Below, in pieces: positions 9,542-32,537 of a DNA stretch of 64,000 bases (the stretch's first letter is position 1; each line of letters opens with the position of its first letter). A program made the translations under genes and the position numbers. The notes below the pieces were generated by a model. It was not told the DNA's origin and made no database searches. It worked only from the letters and a program-made list of their open reading frames with translations. Origin of the DNA: Gimesia alba (lineage in GTDB: Bacteria; Planctomycetota; Planctomycetia; Planctomycetales; Planctomycetaceae); assembly GCF_007744675.1 (NCBI RefSeq), contig NZ_CP036269.1, forward strand, positions 7,447,917-7,511,916, in the 5' to 3' direction.

Positions 9542-11836
9542 ATGCTGATTTCGATAAGTGACACACCCACCAACGAACGAGGACCACGACACATGCGGTC
9601 GATTTTGGCCGCCATTCATCACGCGTCTTCGAAGAAACGTCCCGTTTCGTTCATCATCGGTCGGCATGCACGGCAAGTCGGCTTGTATTGTCGTTTCCCC
9701 GGTCTGTTACATGAGTTGGTGCAAGGGCAGTTTCACGCGAAGTACCCCGATTGTTCGATTGAATTGTTGGAAGAGGATGCACTTGATTGCCCAGCAGGCT
9801 ATGAAACACATTTGATGAGCCTGCATTTACGCCCGGACCTGTTTCCGATTTTGCGGTATCAACAGTTTGAAGATGTGATTCATGAAGAAGTCGATGATCC
9901 GATTGGAGGGGTGCTACAAACGGTTGCTCCGGATCACAGCGAGATTCAGGCCATGTTCGAATTGACGGTGATTCCTGCCAGTGCTTGTCGCTGTAACCAA
10001 GCACAATCCGCGGTGGAACGCTTGGCTCGTCCTTTTTTTCGTAAACACCGCAGTATTGCCCGAAAATATGCAATGGCAGCCAGTAGCCCCAAACGTTGGC
10101 AACGGGTATTGGCTGCGTTCTTAGTGTGTTTCTTCATTTGGAAGAGGGAAGAGCGATTCGGCTCGGATGAAGAACTTAATAAGACATCCTCTCGTATGCA
10201 CGATAACGAAAAAGACCTGCAAGCTGCTTCCGTGAAGCTGGGACAGCATCTGTTTGAAGTGCAATTGAGACTGGTTGTTAATGCACCAACGGATCAAAAA
10301 CAGACTGCCATTCGTAAATTACACGAGATGGCTGCAGTATTAAACAAATTCACGGAACCACGGCTGGGGTTATTTCAGTCTTCAGGCATTTCCAAGAACG
10401 AGATACGTCCCCATCAACGTGTTTTTTTACTCTCTGATGAAGAACTGGCGACAATCTGGCATCTGCCGACCAGTTCCGTGCGGGATGTTTCATTACAGGC
10501 GACACATTCCCGGCGGCTGGAACCGCCGGTGGAGTTACCCCTCAAAAAAAAGGAATCTTTTGGTTCCAGAATTTGCGAACTGGGAAGAGTTTCCTTTCAG
10601 GATCAACATGAACGATTTGGGATTCGTGCCGAAGATCGGTTTCGGCATCTGTTCATCGTCGGTAAAACCGGGAATGGGAAATCGACAGTCCTGCAGAATG
10701 CCATTCTTTCCGACATGAATTCAGGAGAGGGGCTGGCCGTCGTGGATCCACACGGGGATCTGGCCGAGGCGGTCCTGGCAGCCGTGCCCAGTCAGCGGAC
10801 CAACGATGTCATCCTAATCGATCCGAGTGATCTAGCGTTTCCCGTCAGTATCAATCCGCTGGATGTCCCCCCGTCAATGGTGGATGTTGCCTGCGATGGA
10901 GTGGTCAGCACGTTTCGAAAAGTTTTCGGAACGGGGACGCATACGCCCCGTCTTGAGGATATTCTGTGGAACACCGTTCTGGCTTTGATGCTGGCAGGGG
11001 ACTGTACGATTCTCGATATGCTGCGGATGTTTGCCGTCGATGATACGTTTCGCCGGGAAACACTTGCCAGGGTGACAGACCCGGTGGTCCGGAACTGGTG
11101 GATGACCACGTTTCCCAAACTGCGTTCTCTGAAAGGGGAGGACCCGTTTGCCTCGGTCGAGAATAAGCTGCGGCAATTACTGACGAATTCGGTGATCCGT
11201 AATATGGTCTCGCAGCCAAAGAGCAGAATTGATTTCCGAAAGGCGATGGATGAAGGAAAGATCATCATTATCAATCTTTCCAAGGGCAAACTGGGGGAAC
11301 GAACGTCTTCATTTCTTGGCTCTTTATTCGTGACTCAACTGCAACTGGCGACTATGACGCGTGCTGCGATTCCAGAACAGGATCGCAGGCCGTTTTACCT
11401 GTATTGTGATGAATTTCAGCACATCGCGACATCGAGCTTTTCCGTATTTCTCTCAGAAGCCCGCAAGTACAAACTGGGACTCTGTCTGGCAACCCAGTTC
11501 CTCGATCAGGTTGATCAGCAAACCCTGCAGGCAGTTTTCGGCAACATCGGTAGCTTACTGGTGTTCGCCGTAGGCCCTAATGACGCGGACATCCTGGCAG
11601 AACAACTGACCGGTCCTGTCAACGCAGCCGACTTGATCGCCTTGCCTAAATACCGGGCCTGTATTCGTTTGATGATTGATGGCATGTCCCGCCCTGCATT
11701 TACCATGGAGACCATCAAACCAGAAACGAACAATGTTGACCGTTCCGAATTCGTGAGGGAACAATCACGCCGTCGATATGCTCAATCAGTCAATTCTGTA
11801 CAAGCGGTAATTCAGCGGTCTTTCACTTTGATTTGA
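9542..11836 (+). CDS. Type IV secretion coupling-protein-like ATPase (copy 1)
   Basis: 764 residues. Walker A is residues 374-382 (GKTGNGKST), followed by the DPHGDLAEAVL segment typical of conjugative ATPases. The Walker B-type acidic pair is D623-E624 (YCDEFQHI), followed by a Gln-containing motif (CLATQFLDQ), as in VirD4/TraG/TraD. The N-terminal 330 residues carry a hydrophobic stretch (RVLAAFLVCFFIW, about 195), so membrane attachment is possible. These ATPases drive DNA into a conjugation channel. The 9542 ATG is kept because homologous N-terminal regions extend past the internal ATG at 9593, which has GAGG upstream. No other type IV secretion genes are visible in the window. Confidence 0.75.
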   Translation: MLISISDTPTNERGPRHMRSILAAIHHASSKKRPVSFIIGRHARQVGLYCRFPGLLHELVQGQFHAKYPDCSIELLEEDALDCPAGYETHLMSLHLRPDLFPILRYQQFEDVIHEEVDDPIGGVLQTVAPDHSEIQAMFELTVIPASACRCNQAQSAVERLARPFFRKHRSIARKYAMAASSPKRWQRVLAAFLVCFFIWKREERFGSDEELNKTSSRMHDNEKDLQAASVKLGQHLFEVQLRLVVNAPTDQKQTAIRKLHEMAAVLNKFTEPRLGLFQSSGISKNEIRPHQRVFLLSDEELATIWHLPTSSVRDVSLQATHSRRLEPPVELPLKKKESFGSRICELGRVSFQDQHERFGIRAEDRFRHLFIVGKTGNGKSTVLQNAILSDMNSGEGLAVVDPHGDLAEAVLAAVPSQRTNDVILIDPSDLAFPVSINPLDVPPSMVDVACDGVVSTFRKVFGTGTHTPRLEDILWNTVLALMLAGDCTILDMLRMFAVDDTFRRETLARVTDPVVRNWWMTTFPKLRSLKGEDPFASVENKLRQLLTNSVIRNMVSQPKSRIDFRKAMDEGKIIIINLSKGKLGERTSSFLGSLFVTQLQLATMTRAAIPEQDRRPFYLYCDEFQHIATSSFSVFLSEARKYKLGLCLATQFLDQVDQQTLQAVFGNIGSLLVFAVGPNDADILAEQLTGPVNAADLIALPKYRACIRLMIDGMSRPAFTMETIKPETNNVDRSEFVREQSRRRYAQSVNSVQAVIQRSFTLI

Positions 11837-12138: not shown

Positions 12139-12174
12139 ATGACAAGACACCATCCATACTGCTATACTAAGAGC
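12139..12174 (+). promoter_or_regulatory. Promoter of TA pair 1, probably leaderless
   Basis: ATGACA (12139-12144), an 18-base spacer and TATACT (12163-12168) place the expected start of transcription at or beside the ATG at 12175. There is no Shine-Dalgarno sequence. The second TA pair at 36389 has the same geometry, which supports the call. Confidence 0.6.
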
Positions 12175-12423
12175 ATGTTAAAACCACGACTCACCAAAGA
12201 ACAGCGGAATGCCCTCGACGAACACCACGGGCTGGTGGAAGTGGATGAAGAAGGGCGAAAGTACATCCTCATGTCGATTGAGATCTATCGCGACATGCTG
12301 GGGGTTGGTACGGATGAGGAGTTGGCGGCTTCCCTCAAAGCATTAGACGAAGGGCTGGCTGACGTTGATGCAGGGCGAACCCGTCCGTTCCGTGATGTCC
12401 TGTCCGAACTCGACGACGCATGA
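12175..12423 (+). CDS. Type II antitoxin (element copy)
   Basis: 82 residues starting MLKPRLTKEQRNALDEHHG. The ATG is chosen from the promoter geometry and from its paralog at 36389. The GLVEVDEEGRKYILMSIEIY segment resembles Phd/YefM-type addiction antitoxins that bind operator DNA, and the acidic C-terminus (LADVDAGRTRPFRDVLSELD) likely wraps the toxin. It overlaps the toxin start by 4 bases (ATGA), a standard coupled TA layout. It probably represses its own promoter together with the toxin. Confidence 0.8.
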   Translation: MLKPRLTKEQRNALDEHHGLVEVDEEGRKYILMSIEIYRDMLGVGTDEELAASLKALDEGLADVDAGRTRPFRDVLSELDDA

Positions 12424-12737
12424 CATTTCAAGTAGAACTCTCACGTCGGGCAGAGTCGGATATTAAAAGTGCCTACGCTTATATCCGTAAGCATGGACCG
12501 GCAGATCCGAAAGCCTGGAAAGCCGGTCTTGAGCAAAAACTGACTGGCTTCGAAACCTTTCCGGAAGCCTGTGGTTTGGCTCCCGAAAATGAGTTTGTCA
12601 AAGTAGAAATCCGCCAGGCTCTTTACGGCCCGTTTCGGATTGTCTTTACCATTCGGGAGCAAATCGTGTTTGTGCTTACCGTTCGCCATGCAGCCCGTCT
12701 TTCACTTCAGCGTGATGAATTAGACAAAATCAAATAG
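12420..12737 (+). CDS. ParE/RelE-superfamily toxin (element copy)
   Basis: 105 residues with the ParE/RelE pattern: FQVELSRRAESDIKSAYAYI at the start, ALYGPFRIVFTIREQIVFV in the core and VRHAARLSL near the end. ParE members poison gyrase, RelE members cut mRNA; the sequence does not decide which. It is coupled to the antitoxin by a 4-base overlap. The copy at 36634-36951 is a close paralog, so cross-reaction of the two antitoxins is possible. Confidence 0.8.
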   Translation: MTFQVELSRRAESDIKSAYAYIRKHGPADPKAWKAGLEQKLTGFETFPEACGLAPENEFVKVEIRQALYGPFRIVFTIREQIVFVLTVRHAARLSLQRDELDKIK

Positions 12738-15112: not shown

Positions 15113-15213
15113 AAAAACCGTAGATAGGGTTCATGGAGAGACTGGTTGCACCAATCAATTTGCCAGCATCCTACCTTGCATTCGTGATTGGGCTATATCC
15201 TCTTCCTACGAGA

Positions 15214-15870
15214 TTACATTATCTCGATACTGCTGGAAGCAATGTGAAAAATGAAGTTCACACCATTGTCCTTGGCGAATGCGATTGCGGCACCGCGGTC
15301 TTTGAAATACAACGGAAAATCAACGCACCAGCGATTGGCTTGTTTCTCTTTCCAGCAAGCGACATAGGGTACGAAATTGGTTGCATCCAGGTCGGCCGCT
15401 AATTCAAGCAGTCGTCGTTGCTGTTTAAGAAGCCGGAGGAGTTGTTCCCGACCAGGACGTTTCCGCATGGAATGATGGTATTGTGTGGTGACGAAATAAC
15501 CATCGTGTTCCCAGTTGATAGTTTTAGCAGACTGCATGGAAAGCAGGCAGGCACCATATTTATCAAGCCACTCTCCTATCAGAGTAACTAAGAAATACAC
15601 GCGCAATAATCGCATTGCCATCGGGATCGTTCTGTGTACGGTTGACGGAGATTTATCGATAATTTCGGCGATCTCACGTTCAGTGTAATCGCCTGCATAA
15701 TGCAGACCAATGCCGAGTCGATTGTTCAAATCTTCCCTCACGGCCTGTTTAAGTTCTTCGCTGAGACGCGCAGCGCGATCCGGATCGAGCGGATCATGAT
15801 TCCATCGGCTTCCATCATGATTGGCCCAGATTAACTGCTCAATATGTTGTGTATGATTAAATTTTACCAT
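15214..15870 (-). CDS. HTH-containing DNA-binding protein of unknown family
   Basis: 218 residues, with AAGGA before the ATG. A helix-turn-helix sits at about residues 60-90 (YTEREIAEIIDKSPSTVHRT), resembling sigma region 4 or recombinase-type HTH. The C-terminal half (about 130-218) has a Lys/Arg/Leu-rich helix and an alpha/beta end without recognisable motifs. A regulator of the element is likely, but targets are unknown. It is convergent with the 47-residue gene, which has its own terminator. Confidence 0.65.
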   Translation of the reverse strand: MVKFNHTQHIEQLIWANHDGSRWNHDPLDPDRAARLSEELKQAVREDLNNRLGIGLHYAGDYTEREIAEIIDKSPSTVHRTIPMAMRLLRVYFLVTLIGEWLDKYGACLLSMQSAKTINWEHDGYFVTTQYHHSMRKRPGREQLLRLLKQQRRLLELAADLDATNFVPYVACWKEKQANRWCVDFPLYFKDRGAAIAFAKDNGVNFIFHIASSSIEIM

Positions 15871-15998
15871 TGTGATTATTCCTTATGAGGATTTTATGTG
15901 ATTTACGTGGTTCTAAAGCAGAGCATTATTGTGATGCTGCCATACAAAGAAAGACGGGGTCGCTTCAAACTCGAAGCGCCCCGTCGTATCGGGCAATT

Positions 15999-16250
15999 TT
16001 AACGTGACCAGTGCATGAGTTCCGAATCTTTGTCAGAAAATCCTCCGTATGCACTGTCGGCTAACGAATCCCGAAGGCTGCGCAAATATCCTTCGATAAA
16101 TTTGCGATCAAACATTCCGCCTTCTCCCGCTACGTTGACAGGTGGACGGGGGGGCTTTTGATCGCCATTTTCGCTTGTCGATGGCAAAGGTTGGGGTTCT
16201 TTTACAGTGCGATCGCGTTGTACTCTCAGGTTCTTACTTTTGATACTCAT
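15999..16250 (-). CDS. Small protein of unknown function
   Basis: 83 residues from the ATG at 16250, chosen because GGAG lies about 10 nt upstream; the longer frame has no ribosome site. The N-terminus is basic (IKSKNLRVQRDRTVKEPQ) and the middle Pro-rich; the C-terminus could form a helix (FIEGYLRSLRDSLADSAYGG). It lies 128 bases upstream of the HTH gene on the same strand and may share its operon. Confidence 0.5.
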   Translation of the reverse strand: MSIKSKNLRVQRDRTVKEPQPLPSTSENGDQKPPRPPVNVAGEGGMFDRKFIEGYLRSLRDSLADSAYGGFSDKDSELMHWSR

Positions 16251-16732
16251 TTGAGTGTCTCCAAAAAACAGAAGTTTCGGTGACACCCACCACGAACGAA
16301 AACTGCTCGAAAAGATTGACAAACTAACGAAGCCGTATCAGTCTTTTTCAGCATTCAGCATTCCGTTCGCTCTTGTGGGCGGTCGCTTCCAGAACGCTGG
16401 GTGAAGGGCCGGAGCAACTGCTAATTGCTCCGGTCCGCCTTCAGAAGAGAAATTCTTAACCGAGGAGGACCGGTAACCGACGAATCGAACAGCGTTCAAC
16501 GACTCCACAAGACTTTCCTCTATAATTCTGGTGGTTTGTGTTCCTGCGTGTTCCCAGAATTTTGTGTCGGAGTTTATGTGTGTTCCGCTCTGTTCCAGCC
16601 TTGTTCCACCAAAATAATTGCTCCATAATGGGGAAATTGCACCATCACAGAACACTGTAAGAACATGATTAATTTAGGTGATCAACGTTCCAGAACAGGG
16701 CGAACTGGACACCTTTGGATTGGAAACCGTCA
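16251..16732. other. DGR upstream region with phased GTTCC repeats, no gene
   Basis: GTTCC occurs at 16540, 16550, 16582, 16592, 16603 and 16687 on the + strand, with exactly 10-base spacing within two pairs and 11 in the next. This one-turn phasing upstream of the DGR target suggests a protein-binding array. Frames here lack ribosome sites and protein character. Confidence 0.4.
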
Positions 16733-19700
16733 ATGGGTAAGCTGACGTTATGTTTTAATAAGATCGTAGATGAGCAATACGAGTGGGTTGATGCAAAGTT
16801 CACACACTCGGGTGTGCTTGAGGCGGTCAAGTCAGAAAGTAGACTGAAATTCGAACCCCGCATCGATGACACCATTGACTTCTCCCCAAAAGCCAGAACA
16901 GAGAAGGTTGGAAAGCTCTCCACGGGATTCGCTGCTCTATTGATTTTTTTCCTGGAAGCCAAGATTTGGTCGCTCCAACCGGCCGACAAAATCCAAGGCA
17001 ACGCTAATGAAGAACAAAAATTCTCGCTGACTGCCAAGTATCTGAAGAAACTCAAGAAGACTTCTAAAAAAACACTTAGTGCAAAATTTGGTGCTGGATT
17101 GTGGCAGCCTCGCTTTTTGGGCTGCATAAAGAATGCAGAAACGAATGATGTACGAACCATTGTCAGTCAGATTACTGAATTTGACAGCAATAACGAGAAG
17201 CGAGCTTCATTGAATCAAAATCTCCTCAATCCACGAAATTTGACAATTCAGATAGATGGAAAAACAACAAACAAGAAGAGTGACATTCAATCCATTATTA
17301 ACTGGATCAAAAAGTCCAGCAATTTGAACAAAGAAGATTTAGAAGAGACGAATGAAATCGATGCGATTCTCAATCGCTATTGCAAAAGAATATGCGACCT
17401 GTGGGACGAAGCATACGACTCAAAAAATGACGATGACCGGATCGATCGTTTCATCGAACCGCATTATGGTCTGTCACCCGATCGTCCGTTCAACAAAGTT
17501 ATAGGGCCTGATGCAAACCGAGATGACCGTCACCAAAGCATATACGAGCATGTCGATGGTACAGGGGAAGAGCCACTCTTCAGACTGCTCGAAGCTCCTC
17601 TACTCTGTATCACTGAGGACGCTGGTTGTGGGAAGACAGTACTTTCGCGCCATTTAGAAATGAAATATTCAACCACCGAATGGCAACAGCAATTCTTCGA
17701 AGGTCGCCCCTGTCTGGCCGTTCTATGGAGCCAGCATTGGCCAGGGACCTCAAAGAAATATGGGCTCACTGTTCGGAAAGCTCTTATTCGCAGGCTAAAA
17801 GAATTACTTCCTGATGACAAACACCAAGCCAAAACTGTAGTCGATGTAGCTCTTCGTGAAGGACGTGTCGTCCTTATTCTCGATAGTCTGGATCAAGCTA
17901 CTACCAAAAGTCGTCGGTTGCTTGATCAGTTCCTTAACGGTGGTAAAGAAGTTCCCAATTGTCGTGTAATCGTGACGAGTCGCTATTATGCGGTCTTTCC
18001 ACAATCAGAAAAAATCTTTCGTGATCAAAGGTGGCGTTTTGCACGTATTGAACCATTTACGAGGCAACAGCAAGATGAATATTTTAGTGATTTTGAGGAA
18101 GAGCAGCGCACGATTCTCAATGAAATGGTTCCAGATTGGGAAATGTTAGCCGACCAACTGCAAGTACCGGAAGTCCTGCGACTCGTCCGCGAACAGGTAG
18201 AGAGGCATATTCTGGGTAAACCCGTTGAACCCTTTCGCCGTCGGGGGGACCTTTATTGGACAGCCGCCAAACGCATGCTGCAGCGAGCGTTAAAAAAAAG
18301 TAATAAAGAATGGACGGGTGATTTTAGAGCAGAGCATATTGACGATTTAAAACGAATCATTTGCACCACAGCATATGTAATGCTTCAAAAGAAATGTTTG
18401 CGTTACGCAGTTCCGGATGAGGAAACGGGCGTCGATGTCGCAGATATTAGAATCGAGGTCCTAAATCGATGTTCTAAGGTCATTAATGATGCTAGCTGGA
18501 GCAACTACTGGGAAGTCCTGGAAGATACAGAACTCACTGACCGAGGGCTATTGGAAGCCAGAGGAGAACAAATCCTGGGGTTTCGAAGCTTGAAGTCGAT
18601 GGAATTCTATGTGGGACTTTATTTGGCTCGTTATCTTCCTCTTGAAGACATAGACGAATTGAAACAGACAATCAGCAAAGAACATTGGAACTGGGCGTGG
18701 CGATTTGCTTTGGAAATGAAGAAAGAAGTAGGAGCCCAAAAGGATTCAGTCTTATATCATGCAGTAAAACTTCTTTTTGCACGGCCTGAGTCTGCTACAC
18801 GCCCCACAGAGTTAATGTACCACGCTTGGCCACTGCTGGGTGAAGCTTGGGGCGGTCCAGAACCAGAGCCTGGTTGGAATGTTGATGAAAGTCGCCCACC
18901 ATTGAAATCTGGTAAAGAAATTCTGGAAGAATTTCGTGACGGCGCAGATCGAGCATTAGAATTAATGGCCTTTCAAAAGTGTCCACCTGAGGGCTGGGAA
19001 CATCCTCATGACCGCGATTCGCACGAGTTTTTTATGGGCTCGGCTCCCGATATTGGACACGAAAGTGAAAGGCCTCGGCATCGCGTGCGAATGCCCACAT
19101 TTGAAATGCAAACGACGACGGTGACTCGCGAACAATACAGATTGTTCGATCCTCAGTTGGAAGTCAAAGAATCCGATTGTTTTGAGAAATATGCCAAGGA
19201 AGACCATTGCCCGGTAATTTGTGCTTCATGGTATGATGCCATACTTTTTGCATGTTGGCTGGGAATAGAATACGCATTGCCGACGGAGACACAGTGGGAA
19301 TTTTCCTGCCGGGCGGGACATGATGGTGAACGGGATCTGTTTTCCCTCGCTAATAAAACCAACGTTGAAAAAATTTCGACGCAGCAAGTCAACTTCAATC
19401 CGACCTGGGATGCTGAGGATTCCCGTGACGATGCTGCCGACAATAAATATCGTCAGTGCACGGTTCCAGTTTCCGGAAACGGTGATTCTGTAACGGACGA
19501 TTTTGTTCCAAATGCGTTTGGGTTTTGGCATATGCACGGCAACGTTTGGGAATGGTGCCAGGACGGGTATTCAAGCGACTTCTACCTCGACAGAATCATT
19601 AGACAGCTCCCGCAACAAGAGATTCACGTTGCCAAGTCAGCGACGCGAGTACAAAAACTCGAAATGATTGAGACACAAGCTGACAAGATGACTTTTACCG

Positions 19701-19876
19701 CCGATTTGAATGATTCCGTGGGTTCGTTGCGCGTGTTGCGTGGCGGGTCGTGGTGCTACCTTGCCGGCAACTGTCGGTCCGCGTACCGCTACAGGATCTC
19801 ACCCGACATCAGGTTCAACACAATTGGTTTTCGATTGTGCCGTATGATTGTTTCCCCCGAGTCGTCCTCATCTTAA
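16733..19876 (+). CDS. DGR target: NACHT-like STAND ATPase with C-terminal FGE/C-type-lectin domain
   Basis: 1047 residues from the ATG at 16733; a TTG six codons earlier is an alternative and neither has a strong ribosome site. Residues 1-285 match no family I know. Walker A is E295-T302 (EDAGCGKT) and the NACHT-like Walker B is V379-D387 (VVLILDSLD), followed by VIVTSRYY. Helical segments run to about 740. From about 751 to the end is an FGE-sulfatase fold (a C-type-lectin-like fold): MGSAPDIGHESERPRHRV, LPTETQWEFSCRAG, FGFWHMHGNVWEWCQDG, and the terminal RGGSW to GFRLCR segment, which is the variable repeat. Diversified positions are C1008, Y1009, L1010, G1012, Y1020, I1022, S1023, I1026 and F1028. 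It likely senses a ligand through the variable lectin face and signals via NTP-driven assembly; the output domain is unknown. Confidence 0.85.
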   Translation: MGKLTLCFNKIVDEQYEWVDAKFTHSGVLEAVKSESRLKFEPRIDDTIDFSPKARTEKVGKLSTGFAALLIFFLEAKIWSLQPADKIQGNANEEQKFSLTAKYLKKLKKTSKKTLSAKFGAGLWQPRFLGCIKNAETNDVRTIVSQITEFDSNNEKRASLNQNLLNPRNLTIQIDGKTTNKKSDIQSIINWIKKSSNLNKEDLEETNEIDAILNRYCKRICDLWDEAYDSKNDDDRIDRFIEPHYGLSPDRPFNKVIGPDANRDDRHQSIYEHVDGTGEEPLFRLLEAPLLCITEDAGCGKTVLSRHLEMKYSTTEWQQQFFEGRPCLAVLWSQHWPGTSKKYGLTVRKALIRRLKELLPDDKHQAKTVVDVALREGRVVLILDSLDQATTKSRRLLDQFLNGGKEVPNCRVIVTSRYYAVFPQSEKIFRDQRWRFARIEPFTRQQQDEYFSDFEEEQRTILNEMVPDWEMLADQLQVPEVLRLVREQVERHILGKPVEPFRRRGDLYWTAAKRMLQRALKKSNKEWTGDFRAEHIDDLKRIICTTAYVMLQKKCLRYAVPDEETGVDVADIRIEVLNRCSKVINDASWSNYWEVLEDTELTDRGLLEARGEQILGFRSLKSMEFYVGLYLARYLPLEDIDELKQTISKEHWNWAWRFALEMKKEVGAQKDSVLYHAVKLLFARPESATRPTELMYHAWPLLGEAWGGPEPEPGWNVDESRPPLKSGKEILEEFRDGADRALELMAFQKCPPEGWEHPHDRDSHEFFMGSAPDIGHESERPRHRVRMPTFEMQTTTVTREQYRLFDPQLEVKESDCFEKYAKEDHCPVICASWYDAILFACWLGIEYALPTETQWEFSCRAGHDGERDLFSLANKTNVEKISTQQVNFNPTWDAEDSRDDAADNKYRQCTVPVSGNGDSVTDDFVPNAFGFWHMHGNVWEWCQDGYSSDFYLDRIIRQLPQQEIHVAKSATRVQKLEMIETQADKMTFTADLNDSVGSLRVLRGGSWCYLAGNCRSAYRYRISPDIRFNTIGFRLCRMIVSPESSSS
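19716..19864 (+). repeat. DGR variable repeat (VR)
   Basis: It aligns without gaps to the template at 20295-20443 (offset 579). From W1007 to the ACA codon, 12 template adenines are replaced in VR, plus one C-to-T. The last part (from about 19841) shows non-A differences as expected where the homing-initiation sequence differs between copies. VR encodes the ligand face of the FGE domain. Confidence 0.92.
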
Positions 19877-19914
19877 TGAACTCTGTATCTCTGTACTCTG
19901 AACTCTATGGGGGT

Positions 19915-19933
19915 CTGGGGGCAAAGCCCCCAG
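19915..19933 (+). other. Perfect hairpin downstream of VR, possible homing cruciform
   Basis: CTGGGGGC-AAA-GCCCCCAG: 8-bp stem and 3-base loop, 50 bases after the VR-matching segment and before avd. In phage BPP-1 a hairpin of similar size downstream of VR aids target recognition. No equivalent follows the template. The lack of a U tract makes it a poor terminator. Confidence 0.6.
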
Positions 19934-19946
19934 TCACAATGCGGCC

Positions 19947-20294
19947 ATGAATGTTCCCAAGACACCACTCTTTGTCAAAACACACGACTTTGTTGTCTGG
20001 CTGTTGAAACACACCCAACGATTTCCCAAGTATCTACGGCATAGCTACACGAATCGCCTGGAAGGTGTGGCGTTCGAGTTTGAAGAACTGATCCTGATGG
20101 CGAACACGTTACGTGGTAAACAGCGTCAAGAATTTCTCTCACTCGCCGACGGCAAACTACTCTGCCTACGTGGCCTGCTCCGTTATACAATAGATTTGAC
20201 ATTATTAGGTAGTAATCAATTTCGATTTGCGGCAGAATGTGTTGATGAGCTAGGCCGACTTCTGGGGGCCTGGCAAAAGGGGGCAGACCGCTAA
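19947..20294 (+). CDS. avd: Accessory variability determinant (Avd), four-helix-bundle protein
   Basis: 115 residues, basic and almost entirely helical (FVVWLLKHTQRFPKYLRHSY; LEGVAFEFEELILMANTL; CVDELGRLLGAWQKG), matching the Avd family that forms a ring and binds the reverse transcriptase and template RNA. Length and position between target and template are typical. Its stop codon at 20292-20294 is immediately followed by the template repeat. Together with the RT it is needed for adenine-mutagenic cDNA synthesis. No Shine-Dalgarno is obvious. Confidence 0.85.
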   Translation: MNVPKTPLFVKTHDFVVWLLKHTQRFPKYLRHSYTNRLEGVAFEFEELILMANTLRGKQRQEFLSLADGKLLCLRGLLRYTIDLTLLGSNQFRFAAECVDELGRLLGAWQKGADR

Positions 20295-20443
20295 CCGTGG
20301 GTTCGTTGCGCGTGTTGCGTGGCGGGTCGTGGAACAACAACGCCGACAACTGTCGGTCCGCGTACCGCAACAGGAACACACCCGACAACAGGAACAACAC
20401 AATTGGTTTTCGATTGTGCCGAGTGATTGTTCTCCCCGAATCG
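20295..20443 (+). repeat. DGR template repeat (TR)
   Basis: The non-coding template begins at the base after the avd stop. It contains nine AAC codons in the VR reading phase, the codon that gives the widest amino acid range on A mutagenesis without making stops. The flanking sequence GTGGGTTCGTTGCGCGTGTT is identical in VR. A frame that starts here is an artefact of its kinship to VR. Confidence 0.92.
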
Positions 20444-20595
20444 TTCGTTATGCCAGATGTCGGGTCTGCTGCACCTTGGTGTGTTCTGCACGTCCGGCCT
20501 GTGCCAAGAGGACGACAGGTCTGTTTCCTGTGTACCCATCCCAAAAGAGGGTATGAGAGTGTTTCTTTTTTGAGCGACGGGGCCGAAGCCGCAGC

Positions 20596-20642
20596 GACGG
20601 GCGGGGGCTGGTAGCGTCAGCGAACGTCCCCACCCGTCTTTT
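20596..20642 (+). terminator. Terminator-like hairpin between TR and RT
   Basis: GACGGG-C-GGGG (20596-20606) pairs with CCCC-A-CCCGTC (20628-20638), with opposed single-base mismatch, then TTTT GTTT. It lies just before the RT ribosome site, so it could end or attenuate the TR transcript. Confidence 0.5.
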
Positions 20643-20665
20643 GTTTCTATTGAAAGGTGGACACG

Positions 20666-21742
20666 GTGGCAAAATCCTACGGCAATCTCTGGCCCCAGTT
20701 CGCATCATGGGACAACTTGACACTTGCCTATTGTCGTTGCCGCCGTCGCAAGAGATTCAAACGTGGAGCCATCGCCTTTGATTTCGCATGGGAATCGAAC
20801 TTGCTCACACTTCAGCGCGAACTTGATGATGGAACGTATGAACCCGGACCTTATCGGCACTTCTTCATCTGTGATCCCAAACCTCGTAAAATCAGTGCCG
20901 CCCCCTTCCGCGATCGGATCCTCCACCATGCGATTGTGAATATCCTCGAACCGCTCTATGAGCGGCGGTTCCTTCATGACAGTTATGCCTGCCGCCAGGG
21001 AAAGGGAACGCATCGAGCTCTCGACCGGGCACAGCATTTTCTCCGCCGTCATTCATTTGTCCTGCAAACCGACATTCAGCGGTTCTTTCCGAACGTTGAC
21101 CATGAGATACTGCTTGATTTGCTGAAGCGTACAATCGTCGGTCATCGGCTACTGGACTTGGTTTCGAAAATCGTGGTTTCAGGTGAGGGCATATTCGATG
21201 ATGAGACGCCTCGAACCTGGTTCCCCGGTGATAACCTATTAGATATCCTGCGTCCGACCGGACTGCCGATTGGCAATCTCACCAGTCAGTTTTTTGCCAA
21301 TGTGCTGCTCGATCCGGTTGACCACTTCATCAAGGAGCAACTCCGCATTCCGGGATATGTGCGCTACGCCGATGACCTCTTACTGTTTGCTGACGAGAAA
21401 AAAATCCTGTGGTCGGCGGCTGAAAAGGTTGTCCGTTTTCTGGCTACGTTTCGCCTTCGGTTGCATCCTCAAAAAACAGTCGTACACGCTTCAAGACATG
21501 GCGTGAAATTCCTCGGATTTCGACTGAAACCCAAAGAAAGACGTCTGGCTCAGCAAAGTGTCCGCCGCATGCGGTCTCGACTCCGTCAGCAACAGCGGCT
21601 TTTTTCTGCGGGGGAAATCGATTGTTGCGATGTCAGCCGTTCGCTGCAGGCATGGTTAGCACATTGCCACACCGCCAATACGACTGGTCTGATAAATGAC
21701 CTGCTGCGTGGTGTTCGTTTTCATCGCGGCCCTGGCAACTGA
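20666..21742 (+). CDS. DGR reverse transcriptase
   Basis: 358 residues from GTG at 20666, chosen because GAAAGG lies about 8 nt upstream; the GTG at 20657 would overlap that site. The N-terminus (AKSYGNLWPQFASWDNLTLA) is typical of DGR RTs. G203-Q208 (GNLTSQ) carries the DGR-type motif, and the catalytic Y234-D237 is YADD. Thumb residues follow (LHPQKTVVH, VKFLGFRLKP). It copies TR RNA with frequent errors at adenines and delivers the product to VR. The order target-avd-TR-RT is the standard DGR layout. The frame is intact, so the system looks functional. Confidence 0.93.
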   Translation: MAKSYGNLWPQFASWDNLTLAYCRCRRRKRFKRGAIAFDFAWESNLLTLQRELDDGTYEPGPYRHFFICDPKPRKISAAPFRDRILHHAIVNILEPLYERRFLHDSYACRQGKGTHRALDRAQHFLRRHSFVLQTDIQRFFPNVDHEILLDLLKRTIVGHRLLDLVSKIVVSGEGIFDDETPRTWFPGDNLLDILRPTGLPIGNLTSQFFANVLLDPVDHFIKEQLRIPGYVRYADDLLLFADEKKILWSAAEKVVRFLATFRLRLHPQKTVVHASRHGVKFLGFRLKPKERRLAQQSVRRMRSRLRQQQRLFSAGEIDCCDVSRSLQAWLAHCHTANTTGLINDLLRGVRFHRGPGN

Positions 21743-22013
21743 CTTCATTCCGCTATCGTGCTCTTACGAAATCGCGGAAACTGCAGCGCCTGCGCCTAAG
21801 GGTAGAGACCCCTGGGAAAACGACGTCATTACAAAGGCATCGTACTCCTGGAGCAGTCTCGTCTCCAATGTCTCGTCCAGACATTTATTTAGCAACTGTA
21901 TGCTGAATTTACATCTTGAGCAGATCGCAGGTTTTTCTAAGCGTCCCACAAGGATGTCCGGATAGGACCGGAGGCTTTTTTATTATTTGGCCAATCATTC
22001 AAGGGAGTCAAAT
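21743..22013. other. Intergenic after RT, possible terminator
   Basis: TCCGG-ATAGGA-CCGGA near 21957 is followed by GGCTTTTTTATT, a weak terminator-like element for the DGR. No gene is seen. Confidence 0.35.
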
Positions 22014-22211
22014 ATGTCAATGAATATTTTGGAAAAGGTCAGTTTATGGCTAACGCTGTTCTCAATTTCATTCTGCATTGTTTTTTTATTCAATAACAAC
22101 GTGGAAGGGGCCATTGCCTCGGGGATGACAACAGCCTCGGTTAAAACACCTTTTATGTTGGTTCACCAATGTGTTTGGTCAAAGCTCAAACGAAGTACAA
22201 CAGATCAATAG
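22014..22211 (+). CDS. Small membrane protein
   Basis: 65 residues from the ATG at 22014 with GGGAG 6 nt upstream. One transmembrane helix (WLTLFSISFCIVFLF, about residues 11-26) is followed by a Thr/Ala segment and a basic tail (WSKLKRSTTDQ). No family is recognised. It begins a run of small genes leading to the E1/E2/JAMM cassette. Confidence 0.55.
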   Translation: MSMNILEKVSLWLTLFSISFCIVFLFNNNVEGAIASGMTTASVKTPFMLVHQCVWSKLKRSTTDQ

Positions 22212-22251
22212 CTTCACGTCCCCACGTTGAAAATGAAAGGTTTTATGAATC

Positions 22252-22467
22252 ATGTATACCATCCACGGTTACCACAAAAAAGCGAATTGTGAATATGCGG
22301 GACGCGAAGGGGAAGCGGTCGAAATTTCGTCCGCAGATGGTTCGATTGATCATGCCATTCTCTGTTTTCCCGAATTACAAAAACTTCTTCGATTTCGTCA
22401 ATCGCAGTTGGAAAAGAAAAACGGCTCTTCGCAAAATGTGAACTCTCCAGAATCTAAGAAATCGTAA
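22252..22467 (+). CDS. Small protein of unknown function
   Basis: 71 residues (MYTIHGYHKKANCEYAG, then HAILCFPELQKLLRFRQSQ). Start follows GAAAGG with long spacing. It may be a short beta-strand plus helix fold; two cysteines (in NCEY and LCF). The C-terminus is Ser-rich. Role unknown; position suggests it is in the same unit as the E2-like gene. Confidence 0.5.
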   Translation: MYTIHGYHKKANCEYAGREGEAVEISSADGSIDHAILCFPELQKLLRFRQSQLEKKNGSSQNVNSPESKKS

Positions 22468-22512
22468 CGACCAGCACTCTGAACACCAGAAAACACTCAT
22501 TCCATTTTGACA

Positions 22513-22530
22513 CCAGTCCAGTGGGACTGG
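22513..22530. repeat. Palindrome sharing a 15-mer with 9335-9349
   Basis: CCAGTCC-AGTG-GGACTGG. The 15-mer CCAGTCCAGTGGGAC is the exact reverse complement of 9335-9349. It lies directly upstream of the E2-like gene. Confidence 0.6.
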
Positions 22531-22571
22531 CTTAATCCCAACTACTTTTCCTTACTAACGGAGAACGAATT

Positions 22572-22868
22572 ATGGCTGCTGTGACGAAAAACTATCGTGT
22601 TGACGGGCGTGACGACTACACCCTCACTTACCAAAAGAAATGGAACGGGACGTATGAGATTCATTGTTCCCGTCATCCGCACAACCCACAGAGCCGCAGT
22701 ATGAATGACTGCCACTTGGGTTCCGATGGAAAAGTTTGTGTGGCCAGTGGCAAGGAACCCAGATCTCTCGACAAGGCGAAAGCAATTGGCATGGCATTCG
22801 CCGAAGGCTACAGCCACTACGTCCGCACAGGAATTTTCCCCAATGGTGCCAAACGGGTGAATGTTTAA
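22572..22868 (+). CDS. Small E2-like protein (tentative)
   Basis: 98 residues, with GGAG about 8 nt before the ATG. Residues 30-50 carry HCSRHPHNPQ and NDCHLGSDGKVCVAS, followed by AFAEGYSHYVRTGIFPNG. This order (HPH, then DGxxC, then a helix ending YxxTGxxP) resembles short prokaryotic E2 conjugating enzymes, where the Cys of DGKVC would take the thioester. Its neighbours, a JAMM protease and E1-like enzyme, fit. The match is from memory of motif order only; an unrelated small protein is possible. Confidence 0.45.
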   Translation: MAAVTKNYRVDGRDDYTLTYQKKWNGTYEIHCSRHPHNPQSRSMNDCHLGSDGKVCVASGKEPRSLDKAKAIGMAFAEGYSHYVRTGIFPNGAKRVNV

Positions 22869-22894
22869 TCAAAATCACTTTTCTCGGGTCGTTG

Positions 22895-22923
22895 TTGCAT
22901 CGGGCTAGGTTCCGGCGATGCAA
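22895..22923 (+). promoter_or_regulatory. Hairpin in the leader of the 29-residue peptide gene
   Basis: TTGCATCG (22895-22902) pairs with CGATGCAA (22916-22923). It lies about 45 bases before the peptide start and could stabilise or regulate its mRNA. Confidence 0.4.
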
Positions 22924-22969
22924 TCACGACGGGTCACAACGCGGAACGACATTTAAGAGGGAGATCGCT

Positions 22970-23059
22970 ATGAAATTCGTACTCAATGGGATCGAAGAAC
23001 TTGATTCTGGCACTTTGCACGGTATCGAAGAACTTGACAGCGGCACACTTCACGCGTGA
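22970..23059 (+). CDS. 29-residue peptide with two identical 11-residue units
   Basis: MKFVLN, then GIEELDSGTLH twice, then Ala and stop. GGGAG lies 6 nt upstream. The two unit sequences differ at eight bases in five codons, all synonymous (GGG/GGT, GAT/GAC, TCT/AGC, ACT/ACA, TTG/CTT), so selection has held the peptide constant. A terminator follows directly and the JAMM and E1 genes come next. It may be the substrate of these enzymes, either as a minimal ubiquitin-like tag or as a ribosomally made modified peptide; it has no double Gly tail. It is not long enough for a standard ubiquitin fold. Confidence 0.65.
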   Translation: MKFVLNGIEELDSGTLHGIEELDSGTLHA

Positions 23060-23075
23060 TGCCTAACCTCTGTCT

Positions 23076-23116
23076 ACCGGGGGTCGGCACATTGTGATCG
23101 ATCCCCCGGTTTTTTT
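23076..23116 (+). terminator. Intrinsic terminator after the peptide gene
   Basis: ACCGGGGGTCG pairs with CGATCCCCCGGT (one bulged base), followed by seven T. It would yield a short abundant peptide mRNA with partial read-through into the enzyme genes. Confidence 0.85.
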
Positions 23117-23165
23117 ATCCCAACCAGTCAAGACAAAACAATATTTTATTGGAGAACCTCCCATT

Positions 23166-23822
23166 ATGTTTTATCCCTCACCTCTTTTTCTCCATGATCT
23201 GCCTCAACTTCAGAGAAGCAATCTTCACCTGTTTGCCGAGTCGTCCCCCGTTCATGCACCAAACGAATCTGATGATGATCATGTTGAAGCAGATGATTCG
23301 GAAACCCTAATCCGTCATCGAGAACGGGCGAGTCAAAAAGAAGACCACTCATTCATCATTAACAACAATAATGCAGGTCTCGGTCCCCTTCTGAAGATGA
23401 CACCGTCGGTCTATCAAGAAATTCTGGATGACCTGGTAGAACAGCCGTTTCGCAAAGAGAAAGCGGGAATGTTATTGGGGCCGACTACGGAAGACGATCT
23501 GGTCACTCACTATCTACCAGACAATAACGGTCGATCCACACCTTCTTCATTCACTCTGGACGCAGAAGGCCTCAATAAAAAGTTGCGGAAGCACAAGTCT
23601 GTAGGACTGAATTGCAAAGGCGTTGTTCACGTTCATCCGCCTGGTGTTCTGAGACCCTCCTTCGGGGATCTGACCTATGTCGCCAAGCTGTTCGCCAATC
23701 CGAAGAACAAGGAAGCTACACAAGTCCTGCTGCCAATTGTCTGTAACGGTCGGCTCTATCCCTATCTGATTGACGCTGAACATCCGCAGGAAATAGTGGT
23801 TGCCAGTCTGATTCTAATCTGA
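23166..23822 (+). CDS. JAMM/MPN-domain metalloprotease
   Basis: 218 residues from the ATG at 23166, chosen for GGAG upstream; the longer frame from 23094 would run through the terminator. Residues 155-168 give the full zinc motif H-x-H-x7-S-x2-D (H155, H157, S165, D168), and a Glu in KEKAGMLLGP supplies the usual acid. The first 65 residues are acidic and probably unstructured. JAMM proteins remove ubiquitin-like tags or process such proteins; here it sits just before an E1-like gene. All catalytic residues are present. Confidence 0.85.
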   Translation: MFYPSPLFLHDLPQLQRSNLHLFAESSPVHAPNESDDDHVEADDSETLIRHRERASQKEDHSFIINNNNAGLGPLLKMTPSVYQEILDDLVEQPFRKEKAGMLLGPTTEDDLVTHYLPDNNGRSTPSSFTLDAEGLNKKLRKHKSVGLNCKGVVHVHPPGVLRPSFGDLTYVAKLFANPKNKEATQVLLPIVCNGRLYPYLIDAEHPQEIVVASLILI

Positions 23823-23895
23823 CAGCAACTCGGCGGATTTACTGAACTTCAATTTAAGCACTATCACTATCCTTATTTATTGAAAGTATGAACCA

Positions 23896-24822
23896 ATGCA
23901 ATTTGATCGAATAGAAAACGTCGTTAATATTCCGACTATCCAACTTAAAGAAGTCACCATCGTCGGTGCGGGTGGTTCCGCTCCTCTGATTGAAAATCTG
24001 ACCCGATCTGGTGTGCAACATTGGAAACTGGTCGACCCGGACATTATTGAAAATGTCAATATTTCCCGACAAGGGCATGCTCCCGATGATATCGGGATGT
24101 CGAAAGTCGAAGCGGTTGCCAATAAAATTCGGGCCATCAATCCCGAAACGACTATCGAGTGTTTCCCAATAGATTTTACCATGTTATGCGATGACGAAAT
24201 TCGTGAGTCGTTTGGCGATACCGACCTGTTCATCCTCGCGACCGACAGCTTTGCAGCCCAATCGCGCGGCAATGAAGTTGCCTTGTTACTCAACACTTCA
24301 GCCATCTGGATTGGGCTGTATGCGGGTGGTTTGGGCGGTGAAGTCGTTTTCTGGCACCCTGAATTGGATTGCTGTTTTCGATGTCTCTGTAGTGGTCGTT
24401 ACAAAGCCCAATCGAAAGCGAACGAAGAAGGGCGTTCGCTTGATCCACCGAGTGACGGAGCGACCATATTTGATATCCAACTGCTCGATTCCATCGCCGG
24501 TCATCTCTGTTTAGGGCTCCTCACGCGAGGGAACGACAATCGTTTCGGAAAACTGATCGACCAATTAGGCAACCGTCAATTCATTCAGGTCGGCATTAGT
24601 CCCGGTTTTCGGATCAACGGTAATGATGTCATTCGAAAACATCTGGGAGTCGATGAGAACTGCCAGTCGTGCTTTGCCTGGAACTCCATCGCCTTGAGCG
24701 ATCCTGCCCAAGGCAATGATTATTGTCCCGACTGCGAAAAGTATCGCGGAACACTGTTTCCATCTCTTTCCCATGGTGTCGGATCAATGCGTGTCAGAAC
24801 GGATCAAACCCAGTCTCAATAG
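23896..24822 (+). CDS. E1/ThiF-like adenylyltransferase
   Basis: 308 residues. A Rossmann nucleotide loop GAGGSAP (residues 24-30) is followed by VDPDIIENVNISRQ, MSKVEAVANKI and LATDSFAAQSRGNE, the usual ATP- and Mg-binding elements of E1/ThiF enzymes. Cysteines DCCFRCLCS and later CPDC/CQSC are likely zinc ligands. Such enzymes adenylate a C-terminal carboxylate of a ubiquitin-like protein or of a short peptide (as MccB does in microcin C7). It follows the JAMM gene by 73 bases. Which substrate it uses is not shown; the 29-residue peptide is the nearest candidate. Confidence 0.85.
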   Translation: MQFDRIENVVNIPTIQLKEVTIVGAGGSAPLIENLTRSGVQHWKLVDPDIIENVNISRQGHAPDDIGMSKVEAVANKIRAINPETTIECFPIDFTMLCDDEIRESFGDTDLFILATDSFAAQSRGNEVALLLNTSAIWIGLYAGGLGGEVVFWHPELDCCFRCLCSGRYKAQSKANEEGRSLDPPSDGATIFDIQLLDSIAGHLCLGLLTRGNDNRFGKLIDQLGNRQFIQVGISPGFRINGNDVIRKHLGVDENCQSCFAWNSIALSDPAQGNDYCPDCEKYRGTLFPSLSHGVGSMRVRTDQTQSQ

Positions 24823-24884: not shown

Positions 24885-25583
24885 ATGGAATCCATTCTTG
24901 TACTAGGTGCGTTGACCGGTGGAGCCTGGTGGGTTGGAAAACAACTCTATCAGGCAGGCCGATCAGCGAATTCACGCAGAGCACGGCGAAGAGAATCAGC
25001 AGTAGCGGCATCCGAGTATCAGCACCGAGAACGATTGAGTCGCCAGCGTCAAATCAGGGAACACCAACAAAAGCAAGCAGTGAGACAAAGAGGACTTAAC
25101 CGAAAGTACCGAGCACTCCAGGTTGCGTTGTTGCAGATCAATCAAGCCCCCGATTTTCAACGGGCGGCCTCACTTGCGGAAGCGGCTCGTGACATTCCGC
25201 TCGCTTCCCGACAACGGCAGTACCGTCGATTCAGACCGCAGCTGGTCAGGCATTATATACGACGACTCCGCTCGGGGGCCGAAGCTCAACTTTTATTGGA
25301 CTCGCTGACAACTCTTGTTGAAGCACTGGGTATCGCCGGTTTTGAAGCGAGCTATATCCAGCAAGAAGCATCAAGACAGGTGCAGAACCGAAACCGGCAA
25401 CCTGCGGAGAATTATTCTGCCACTCTGGAACGGATGCAGCAGGAGCATACTGACCGAACAGCGGCTCTTAATCAGACTTCGCTTGACCCGGATACCAAAC
25501 AGCAATTATTAGAGGCCCAGAACCAACGGTTGGTGGAATCGCTCATGGAAATGACACTCGGCCAGCAGGGAGAGACAACGTGA
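24885..25583 (+). CDS. Basic coiled-coil protein with N-terminal membrane segment
   Basis: 232 residues with AAGAGG before the ATG. A short hydrophobic N-terminus (SILVLGALTGGAWWVG) is followed by a very Arg/Gln-rich stretch (residues 25-75) and mainly helical remainder. Its stop overlaps the next start (GTGA), so it is coupled to the second coupling ATPase and probably works with it, perhaps as a membrane adaptor. No family is recognised. Confidence 0.7.
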   Translation: MESILVLGALTGGAWWVGKQLYQAGRSANSRRARRRESAVAASEYQHRERLSRQRQIREHQQKQAVRQRGLNRKYRALQVALLQINQAPDFQRAASLAEAARDIPLASRQRQYRRFRPQLVRHYIRRLRSGAEAQLLLDSLTTLVEALGIAGFEASYIQQEASRQVQNRNRQPAENYSATLERMQQEHTDRTAALNQTSLDPDTKQQLLEAQNQRLVESLMEMTLGQQGETT

Positions 25584-27481
25584 ACCAGATCTCGCGAATC
25601 CCGATCAGAAAACAGCCATTGTCATTCGGACAACCACTAGCTTCATCGTCCACACAGCTATTCGAGAAGAGTCAGGCAGGAATCTTTATCAGTGGAGATT
25701 CTGGGTTCGGCAAAAGTAATGCCATGAAAGTGCTGATGCAGTCTTTGGCCCTTGAGGGTTTTGGATGGATGTTTATTAGTCCCCACGGTGAAGATCCTGA
25801 AGCTATGCGTGATTGGTGTCTGGCACAAAAAGAATCGATCCGTAATCGGGTTGTGTACATCGATCCGGCAGATACGAGACGGACGACGTGCATCAATCCC
25901 CTCGCGGTCGAACCGACGAATGACCCGATTCAATATCGTGCCAGGTTGACCAATAAAATCGGACACGTCAGCCGCATCCTCTTGGCAGCCTGGGGAGAAG
26001 AAGATTTCAACAGTCGCCCTCGATTGTTCACCTGGACCATGCGAATCCTGACCACCTTGGCAGAACTCGGTTTGCCGTTGGCCGATGCCAAGCAATTTCT
26101 CGATGTTGGTTCTGACATTTACAATGCCCTTGTGCAGGCGGTCCCCGATGTCATGGCAAGACACTTTTTTGAGAATCTGGCTGCCGGTCGTCCACAGGAT
26201 ATTCGGGAAGAGATCGAATCAACCCGCAATCGAATCCTTGGTTTCTTCAGTAACCCGATTACCGAAGCGATGCTCTCTCGTACAACGGGCGTACTCGATT
26301 TCGGACAATTGCGACGCAAAAACGCTATCGTGATTGTCAATCTGAGGCGGGGCGGTGTGCTGCGTGAAGAAGACCAACAGATTCTCGCGAATCTGTTCAT
26401 CGCGGAGTTGTTACACGATGTCTTCAACTGTGACAAACCAGTCCCCTACTTCGCCTTTTTGGATGAATTGCCGGTCTTCGCCAAGGGATCGGGACCGGAA
26501 TTGACCTCGGCAGCGGGACAAATTCGCAAGTTCTTGTTGCGATTGGTCTGTGCCACGCAGGGAGCCAATCCCTTCCCGGATCGGGCGGATGATCGTCTGC
26601 TCAATGCGCTGATCGGTCAGTGCGGGTTGCATTTTTTATTTCGACACAAGCACCCCTACGATGCAAAGTTTTTCGGGGAGATCATCGGACTACCAACTTA
26701 TGATCCCCAACGGATCAAACATGAAATGGTACAAACACAGCAATACCAAGCGGGGCATGATTTGGTCACTTTGACCGATACCAGCGAAAGTGAGTCAGAA
26801 ACAGAGGGAACGGGTGGTTCGGAATCGGACGGTACAACCGACACCGAATCATGGAGTGATACTGACAGTCAATCAACAGGGTCAGCCACCAACAGGTCTG
26901 AATCAAACTCTCGAACAACGGGAACCAGCCAGAACCCGTATGACTCACAGTTAAAACAAATTCGGCAGGCGGTCAGTGATGCCCGTTCCTCCACGACAGG
27001 CAGATCAGACAACGTCTCCCATGGTCACTCTGCAACTCAAGGAGGCTCGCGGGGTAGCTCTCATCAAACCTCCAGCAGTTGGTCCAAATCGGTTGGCAAA
27101 ACGGTTGGCAGGACATTCAAACAATCGCTGGTTCCCCGACTGCGGTGGCGGTCGGTGGTGACCGGGATTACCTATTTTACTCCCCAAGAACATCAGATGA
27201 TGAATGCCACGCTGCTTGCGTCGCTCCAGATTGGAGAAGCGATTGCCCACGGATCAGGGAACCCGATGAAGATTCAGTTCCCTCTCGCACAAGACCCCGC
27301 AAGATGGTCGCCCAAATTTGTGGCGCAACATGTCGAACAATACTTACAAATTCTGGCCCAGATTTCTCCTTCGCCGCGAGAAGTATTACAAGCACACCAA
27401 ACGGAACTGGAAACCATGATCAAAAATCTGGGGCTGGCATTGCCGGAAAAAGATGTCGGTGATGACCCTTTTCCCAATTGA
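25580..27481 (+). CDS. Type IV secretion coupling-protein-like ATPase (copy 2)
   Basis: 633 residues from GTG at 25580, with GGGAG upstream and a 4-base overlap with the gene before. Walker A is S38-S46 (SGDSGFGKS); the acidic pair D295-E296 lies in FAFLDELPVF, then CATQGANPF, as in VirD4-like ATPases. Residues about 398-510 form an unusual Ser/Thr/Glu-rich low-complexity linker, and a short C-terminal domain follows. It lacks a clear N-terminal membrane domain; the upstream small protein could supply one. It differs strongly from copy 1, so the pair arose from separate acquisitions rather than recent duplication (inference). Confidence 0.75.
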   Translation: MNQISRIPIRKQPLSFGQPLASSSTQLFEKSQAGIFISGDSGFGKSNAMKVLMQSLALEGFGWMFISPHGEDPEAMRDWCLAQKESIRNRVVYIDPADTRRTTCINPLAVEPTNDPIQYRARLTNKIGHVSRILLAAWGEEDFNSRPRLFTWTMRILTTLAELGLPLADAKQFLDVGSDIYNALVQAVPDVMARHFFENLAAGRPQDIREEIESTRNRILGFFSNPITEAMLSRTTGVLDFGQLRRKNAIVIVNLRRGGVLREEDQQILANLFIAELLHDVFNCDKPVPYFAFLDELPVFAKGSGPELTSAAGQIRKFLLRLVCATQGANPFPDRADDRLLNALIGQCGLHFLFRHKHPYDAKFFGEIIGLPTYDPQRIKHEMVQTQQYQAGHDLVTLTDTSESESETEGTGGSESDGTTDTESWSDTDSQSTGSATNRSESNSRTTGTSQNPYDSQLKQIRQAVSDARSSTTGRSDNVSHGHSATQGGSRGSSHQTSSSWSKSVGKTVGRTFKQSLVPRLRWRSVVTGITYFTPQEHQMMNATLLASLQIGEAIAHGSGNPMKIQFPLAQDPARWSPKFVAQHVEQYLQILAQISPSPREVLQAHQTELETMIKNLGLALPEKDVGDDPFPN

Positions 27482-31084: not shown

Positions 31085-31152
31085 AAGCTGCGCCCTTAAA
31101 AGGGCTGATCTGGACTTCACAATGTTTTTCCTGCAAGGTGCTATCGTCTCTC

Positions 31153-32406: not shown

Positions 32407-32488
32407 AGGCTTCCCAGTTATGGTTTCCAATGTTATCCCAATCTCATTGAAATTCTGTCCGCGATTTGTCCGCGGTAATTCCATTCAC

Positions 32489-32527: not shown

Positions 32528-32537
32528 AATACCAAAG

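Follow-up and report, generated by a model that had tools for sequence, protein, structure and literature searches.

The account of STAND NTPase-FGS proteins in PMC8195603 associates them with diversity-generating retroelements (DGRs) and reports that they occur at least twice, with NTPases and N-termini that differ between the copies. A link of DGRs to FGS effectors in ternary systems is made in PMC7159879. Related DGR targets in PMC10907252 join a NACHT domain to a C-type lectin (CLec) domain, with N-terminal extensions that hold no known domains and with duplicated loci that carry unlike N-termini. The same class is proposed in both PMC8195603 and PMC10907252 to act as counter-invader sensors, and the role of DGR-diversified STAND receptors is, according to PMC10907252, still to be tested. 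Here, a 64,000-nucleotide stretch of the Gimesia alba chromosome (the window; all coordinates below are window positions unless stated) was analysed, which carries a complete DGR whose target is a protein combining a NACHT ATPase with a formylglycine-generating enzyme (FGE)/C-type lectin domain. Since NTPase-FGE-DGR systems are in print (PMC8195603, PMC10907252), the system in the window is a further example of a described kind.

The systems described in PMC8195603 contain NACHT, MNS or nSTAND1 NTPases and often occur in at least two copies per genome, and the window target resembles them in linking a STAND NTPase to a DGR-associated FGE/FGS domain. In that description, however, the N-terminus is an effector-associated domain (EAD) or a named effector, whereas here it is unrecognised; moreover, scans of seven neighbouring genes in the window name no trypsin or caspase, and a JAB-type gene lies nearby. 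The likeness to DGR 3 of Thiohalocapsa PB-PSB1 and the clade 5D DGRs, as set out in PMC10907252, comprises a NACHT domain, a CLec domain bearing the variable repeat (VR), an N-terminal extension without a known domain and duplicated loci. Transposons are implicated in those DGRs, which often have two targets per locus, whereas the Gimesia alba loci have one target each and lie in tRNA-Leu islands. Avs and other bacterial NACHT proteins, as they appear in PMC10907252, share the order of an N-terminal effector position, a STAND ATPase and a C-terminal sensor. In contrast to the window target, which is known from sequence alone, they have been shown to protect against phages, and they are not described there as DGR-diversified.

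The explanation that we consider likely is an NLR-like STAND receptor whose sensor tip undergoes hypermutation by the DGR. The target, its domains and the DGR components are as follows.

16733 to 19876, plus strand: DGR target, 1047 residues (open reading frame (ORF) calling, Pfam).
16733 to 17347, plus strand: N-terminal module of unrecognised fold, in the position of the effectors of relatives (no Pfam match above cut-off).
17606 to 18097, plus strand: NACHT STAND ATPase, Pfam span residues 292-455 (EDAGCGKT, LILDSLDQ, TSR).
19028 to 19840, plus strand: FGE-sulfatase (C-type lectin) domain, residues 766-1036 (Pfam PF03781, E 3.4e-35).
19716 to 19856, plus strand: VR, the last part of the FGE domain.
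19915 to 19933, plus strand: GC-rich hairpin with an 8-bp stem and 3-nt loop, a candidate homing hairpin about 58 bases past the VR.
19947 to 20294, plus strand: Avd accessory protein, 115 residues (Pfam, NCBIfam, PHROG).
20295 to 20435 (start and end approximate), plus strand: template repeat (TR), in direct repeat with the VR.
20657 to 21742, plus strand: DGR reverse transcriptase (RT), 361 residues, with IGNLTSQ and YADD (Pfam RVT_1, E 1e-25).

An earlier note on this DNA had proposed a complete DGR in standard order with intact frames. ORF calling, Pfam searches and the TR/VR repeat confirm this: the order is target-Avd-TR-RT and the target, Avd and RT frames are all intact (an in-frame TTG at 16715 is also present upstream of the target ORF start). 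The Avd protein matches PF22296 (bAvd; E 2e-12, 48 bits against a cut-off of 40) and phrog_3206 (E 1.2e-14), and its match to the NCBIfam model DivGenRetAVD (E 6.4e-19, 68.2 bits) lies under the cut-off of 80. DGR RTs carry the motif IGxxxSQ, which the IGNLTSQ of the window RT fits, and the best PHROG match of this protein is reverse transcriptase (E 4.5e-115). In PADLOC a generic RT model ranked top, with many defence-associated RT (DRT) models below it.

A tree of 45 RTs was built from the window, the second copy in the same genome (copy 2, below), 30 stretches from genomes of the phylum, two further planctomycete records (L021 and L022), two Bacilli records, one viral contig and eight plasmid or phage references. 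In this tree, in which two of the eight references, both group II intron RTs, form the outgroup, and from which retrons, DRTs and other RT classes were left out, the window RT and 42 others including that of phage BPP-1 split from the outgroup with support of 100/99. Together with the motif, this agrees with a DGR RT and does not bear out an RT outside the DGR clade, a possibility that the earlier note had raised against its own reading. The nearest RTs are copy 2 (95%), then L021, L070, L022 and L064; L097 sits on a long branch and the motif is absent from it. Both matches to RTs on viral contigs are distant (29 and 30% identity), and among the best 5000 plasmid records or 169 phage records none reaches 60% identity.

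The locus shares with Bordetella phage BPP-1 (AY029185.2) the gene order, a DGR RT and a GC-rich hairpin after the VR. Unlike the window target, that of BPP-1 is a phage tail protein; the two RTs are 32.8% identical, and the hairpin loop is of 3 nt here as against the 4-nt GRNA of BPP-1. That phage requires its post-VR hairpin with the GRNA loop, and phage DGR hairpins lie 4-34 bp from the VR, according to PMC3240598. The hairpin in the window is thus a candidate only, because its 3-nt loop and distance of about 58 bases both miss this precedent; equally stable folds were obtained from 10 of 200 shuffles. Copy 2 has a counterpart at L003:12933-12951.

The evidence for mutagenesis comes from the repeats. 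A direct repeat of 150 bases (19716-19865 and 20295-20444) is 88% identical, and over its 141-base core the VR of the window (VR1) differs from the TR at 17 sites, 13 of them among the 31 adenines of the TR (Fisher p 3.5e-7). The remaining four mismatches, at 19762, 19844, 19853 and 19854, had not been mentioned in the earlier note. For comparison, DGRs overwhelmingly have at least 75% of their mismatches at adenines, as stated in PMC8144416. Twenty codons of the TR contain adenine, nine of them being AAC, which by codon counting allows up to about 5.7e15 protein variants.

The Gimesia alba genome, a single contig of 7.77 Mb that is 99.97% complete, contains two RT matches (100% and 94%). The second marks another complete locus (L003), with its own 1146-residue NACHT-FGE target, Avd, TR and RT. 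The two TRs are identical over 240 compared bases. VR2 differs from the TR core at 14 sites, all 14 of them adenines (Fisher p 3.7e-11), while VR1 and VR2 differ from each other at 24 of the 141 sites, of which 20 are TR adenines and four are not. The VR is therefore not constant between these two copies of one genome, which leaves unrefuted a proposal that the earlier note had made dependent on VRs in related strains, and the presence of the same TR beside unlike VRs means that the variable part changes while the template stays fixed. The differences between VR1 and VR2 are a footprint of adenine-directed mutagenesis, and by inference the locus carries out mutagenic retrohoming at present. 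The 362-base spacer between Avd and RT differs between the copies at one site (99.7% identity), compared with 93.9% DNA identity for RT and 96.0% for Avd. Treated as RNA, the spacer folds with a z-score of -2.8 (0 of 100 shuffles fold equally well), and an Rfam search over 16000-22600 gave two chance matches only, both below cut-off.

The target protein is laid out as an N-terminal module (residues 1-205), a linker (206-287), the NACHT region (288-455), an unassigned part (456-765) and the FGE/C-type lectin domain (766-1036). The NACHT-like ATPase claimed in the earlier note is borne out by Pfam (PF05729, E 4.7e-9, 36.7 bits against a cut-off of 26.7), and LILDSLDQ and TSR follow downstream. 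The Walker A motif placed at residues 295-302 reads EDAGCGKT: its GK[ST] core is present, and its first residue, E, is atypical, this position usually being G or A. In copy 2 it is Q. A Walker B motif usually ends in DE. No PDB profile match at E 0.1 was found for the stretch 17579-18950, which includes the NACHT domain.

The FGE domain, likewise proposed in the earlier note to end in the VR, does so: the VR forms about its last 43 residues. The domain matches formylglycine-generating enzymes and the Treponema denticola variable protein 1 (2y3c; E 1.8e-7 for the whole match); in this alignment the VR falls opposite residues 250-292 of 2y3c, although this stretch alone is not significant. An AlphaFold2 (AF2) model of the domain from a three-row alignment had a mean predicted local distance difference test (pLDDT) score of 34 and was discarded.

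The N-terminal module remains unrecognised, as originally described. Residues 1-205 gave no Pfam or NCBIfam match above cut-off, in libraries whose number of EAD models was not established, and a PDB profile search with the N-termini of copies 1 and 2 returned chance matches only (best E 0.54). A match to PF21111 (CDI toxin restriction-endonuclease-like) at residues 111-193 was below cut-off (E 0.037) and was rejected as evidence; a single-sequence AF2 model of the module (mean pLDDT 36) was also discarded.

In order to place this architecture among relatives, DGR-linked targets were examined elsewhere. In 33 loci TR/VR pairs were sought by script and accepted when 65% or more of the mismatches fell on A (on T for the opposite strand). 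A pair emerged in 25 of the 33, a set in which adenine bias is a filter and not a result. Domain scans covered 18 of 26 candidate target ORFs; the eight omitted were of 482 residues or fewer, some with doubtful frames, and three of the 18 (L067, L070 and L076) lack a TR/VR pair and were picked by FGE similarity near an RT. All 18 contain an FGE domain, and nine also have NACHT or nSTAND1 (E<=0.001), among them L087, whose NACHT domain is slightly below cut-off and is preceded by an NNH5 domain. In six of the nine the STAND module stands behind TIR (L065, L066), protein kinase (L067, L069, L089) or SIR2 (L090). Targets without a STAND module include a caspase-FGE protein (L083) and kinase-FGE proteins (L068, L085). 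The planctomycete L090 target (L090:1816-7008) carries TPR, SIR2, NACHT and FGE in a single chain of 1731 residues.

The two Gimesia alba copies were also compared region by region. DNA identity is 90.6% over 15212-16199, after which there is no blastn match until 19218, inside the FGE domain, from where identity is 89.1% to 22428. At the protein level residues 1-205 are 23% identical, the linker 27%, NACHT 36% and residues 456-765 28%, as against 76% for the constant part of the FGE domain (791-994) and 70% for the VR. The target before the FGE domain thus looks exchanged or fast-diverging, given 23-36% protein identity beside about 89% DNA identity in the FGE-Avd-TR-RT block. Homology of residues 1-205 between the two copies was not established (BLASTP E 0.16); the observed alignment score was reached by 1 of 500 shuffles in global and 10 of 500 in local alignment.

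When a profile of the two N-termini was run against 392 genomes of the phylum, it matched one more related site within Gimesia alba, the third, and nothing in the other 391. The readable flanks of the island at this third site (L130) are 97.6% and 90.7% identical to the window island on either side of the DGR, and the readable N-terminus of its target is 75% identical to that of copy 2, with no significant match to that of the window. Close islands with unlike receptor N-termini fit module exchange between islands, and an exchange of this kind may be presumed from these sequence comparisons. A more tentative proposal, which we regard as possible but hold with clearly less confidence than the diversified sensor itself, is that of a mobile two-tier NLR-like repertoire. 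The DGR would rewrite the sensor tip, recombination among three related islands of one genome would swap the effector-ATPase half ahead of a conserved FGE-DGR block, and the N-terminal module would represent a new effector family, confined to these islands in the genomes that were searched.

A query with the window N-terminus against 198 relatives found one further genome (G062), matching residues 206-306 only. This genome encodes a NACHT-FGE homologue (L133; 31% identity over residues 206-1037) and is not among the 8 of 119 relatives, Gimesia alba included, with an RT match at E<=1e-60; its protein is possibly a fixed-sensor version.

Three observations support the carriage on a mobile element suggested in the earlier note: the geometry of the tRNA-Leu island, a neighbouring tyrosine recombinase and the empty site of one congener. 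The features concerned are the following.

31012 to 32406, plus strand: tyrosine recombinase/integrase of the island (Pfam Phage_integrase, E 1.9e-18).
32478 to 32490, no strand: interval containing the right end of the island (homology between copies 1 and 2 stops at 32477; chromosomal homology to G016 begins at 32491).
32537 to 32622, minus strand: intact tRNA-Leu(CAG) at the right end of the island (the chromosome has 3' fragments further upstream, before the window begins).

The recombinase adjoins the tRNA-Leu(CAG) gene. Both flanks were checked in one congener, G016, where they adjoin each other and so form the empty site of the island; the left flank of G016 has its match at G000:C1:7404441-7409103, some 71 kb away from the right flank. 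Fragments of the tRNA-Leu 3' end occur at chromosomal positions 7409087-7409189 (83%) and 7433915-7434008 (85%), which suggests a tandem of two islands, about 25 and 46 kb long, with the DGR in the second. No 13-base repeat of the tRNA end was found inside the window, the far-end tRNA fragments lying outside it. Copy 2 is flanked by a tRNA fragment (462627-462719, 80%) on one side and by an intact tRNA-Leu(GAG) on the other. At the RT threshold given above, the 16 other genomes of the genus, of which two are less than 80% complete, have no match, compared with 28 of 392 genomes in the phylum, Gimesia alba included.

Other island genes were noted. A coupling-protein-like ATPase gene (9542-11836, above the Pfam cut-off) and a HerA-like ATPase gene (25580-27481, below cut-off) hint at a transfer-capable or mobilisable island; a literature search for DGRs with integrative and conjugative elements or genomic islands gave no relevant title among the matches listed, and one for DGRs in Gimesia turned up a single paper, on RT classification. 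Beside the DGR, a small gene precedes a JAB-like gene (PF14464, below cut-off) and a ThiF/E1-like gene (PF00899); this stretch (22572-24822) looks like a ubiquitin-like conjugation module and has about 72% DNA identity to its counterpart in the second island. Within the window's module, two tandem 33-base units (22988-23053, 76% alike) encode the repeated GIEELDSGTLH. An overlapping gene pair of toxin-antitoxin-like shape (12139-12737) is 89% identical in the second island, and past the tRNA a further stretch (36373-36945) is 74% identical to the second island's version; NCBIfam gave no match at 0.001. Upstream of the target, a divergent gene with a helix-turn-helix (HTH)/sigma-region-4-like product (15214-15870) lies in the block that is 90.6% identical in the second island.

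If the receptor works as DGR biology and other STAND proteins suggest, RT and Avd would copy TR RNA with random bases placed opposite adenines, and the cDNA would replace the VR, changing up to 20 codons of the FGE/C-type lectin domain. Ligand binding by this domain would then cause the NACHT ATPase to oligomerise and so activate the N-terminal module. This module may be the effector, as its position is occupied by TIR, SIR2, kinase or caspase domains in other DGR-linked targets of planctomycetes, and the likely outcome would be abortive infection or growth arrest directed against phages or rival mobile elements. The whole unit is tRNA-Leu island cargo, and the receptor half before the FGE domain appears to be exchanged between island copies, with the FGE-DGR block kept. 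The receptor is probably anti-phage, and from domain logic and the published proposals we infer a sensor in biological conflict.

Several observations weigh against this explanation. The N-terminal module is without known effector activity, and a PADLOC search with the target gave nothing at E 0.1. Hydrolysis of ATP may be weak, given the E at the head of Walker A (Q in copy 2) and the DQ that closes Walker B. The best NCBIfam match of the RT is a group II maturase model (149.8 bits, far under the cut-off of 300). Homing is thought to begin near the 3' end of the VR, and copy 1 has possibly been silent for some time, because VR1 has four non-adenine differences, three of them near that end. 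The same four mismatches would suit a DGR that is complete in outline and inactive, its VR differences being old; we hold this to be very unlikely, as every frame is intact, the VR2 core has no non-adenine mismatch, and the excess of spacer identity over RT identity (99.7 against 93.9%) points to constraint or recent exchange.

A real DGR might instead diversify a protein that recognises kin, surface or developmental cues, with NACHT relaying the ligand signal to a non-lethal output. That no toxic domain was identified in the N-terminal module by Pfam and PDB profile searches is consistent with such signalling, as are the kinase-FGE relatives without STAND (L068, L085) and the HTH/sigma-region-4-like gene shared by both copies. 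We nevertheless think it unlikely, given the TIR, SIR2 and caspase domains (L065, L066, L090, L083) at the N-terminal place in relatives, and because island carriage and unlike receptor halves suit conflict systems better. Somewhat less doubtful, although still improbable, is a receptor that serves the island, by stabilisation or by exclusion of competing elements, and not host defence. In favour of this idea, islands carry each of the two fully readable copies, with an integrase and a coupling-protein-like ATPase gene close by; sequence cannot separate it from host defence. The hypermutated sensor of an NLR-like STAND receptor remains the preferred explanation.

STAND receptors diversified by DGRs have been proposed as analogues of immune receptors that vary somatically. 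In the compact, single-target system described here, the paired copies share one TR, so that mutagenesis has a built-in readout and the idea of an antigen sensor can be put to the test; its island setting shows a possible route by which such receptors may spread.

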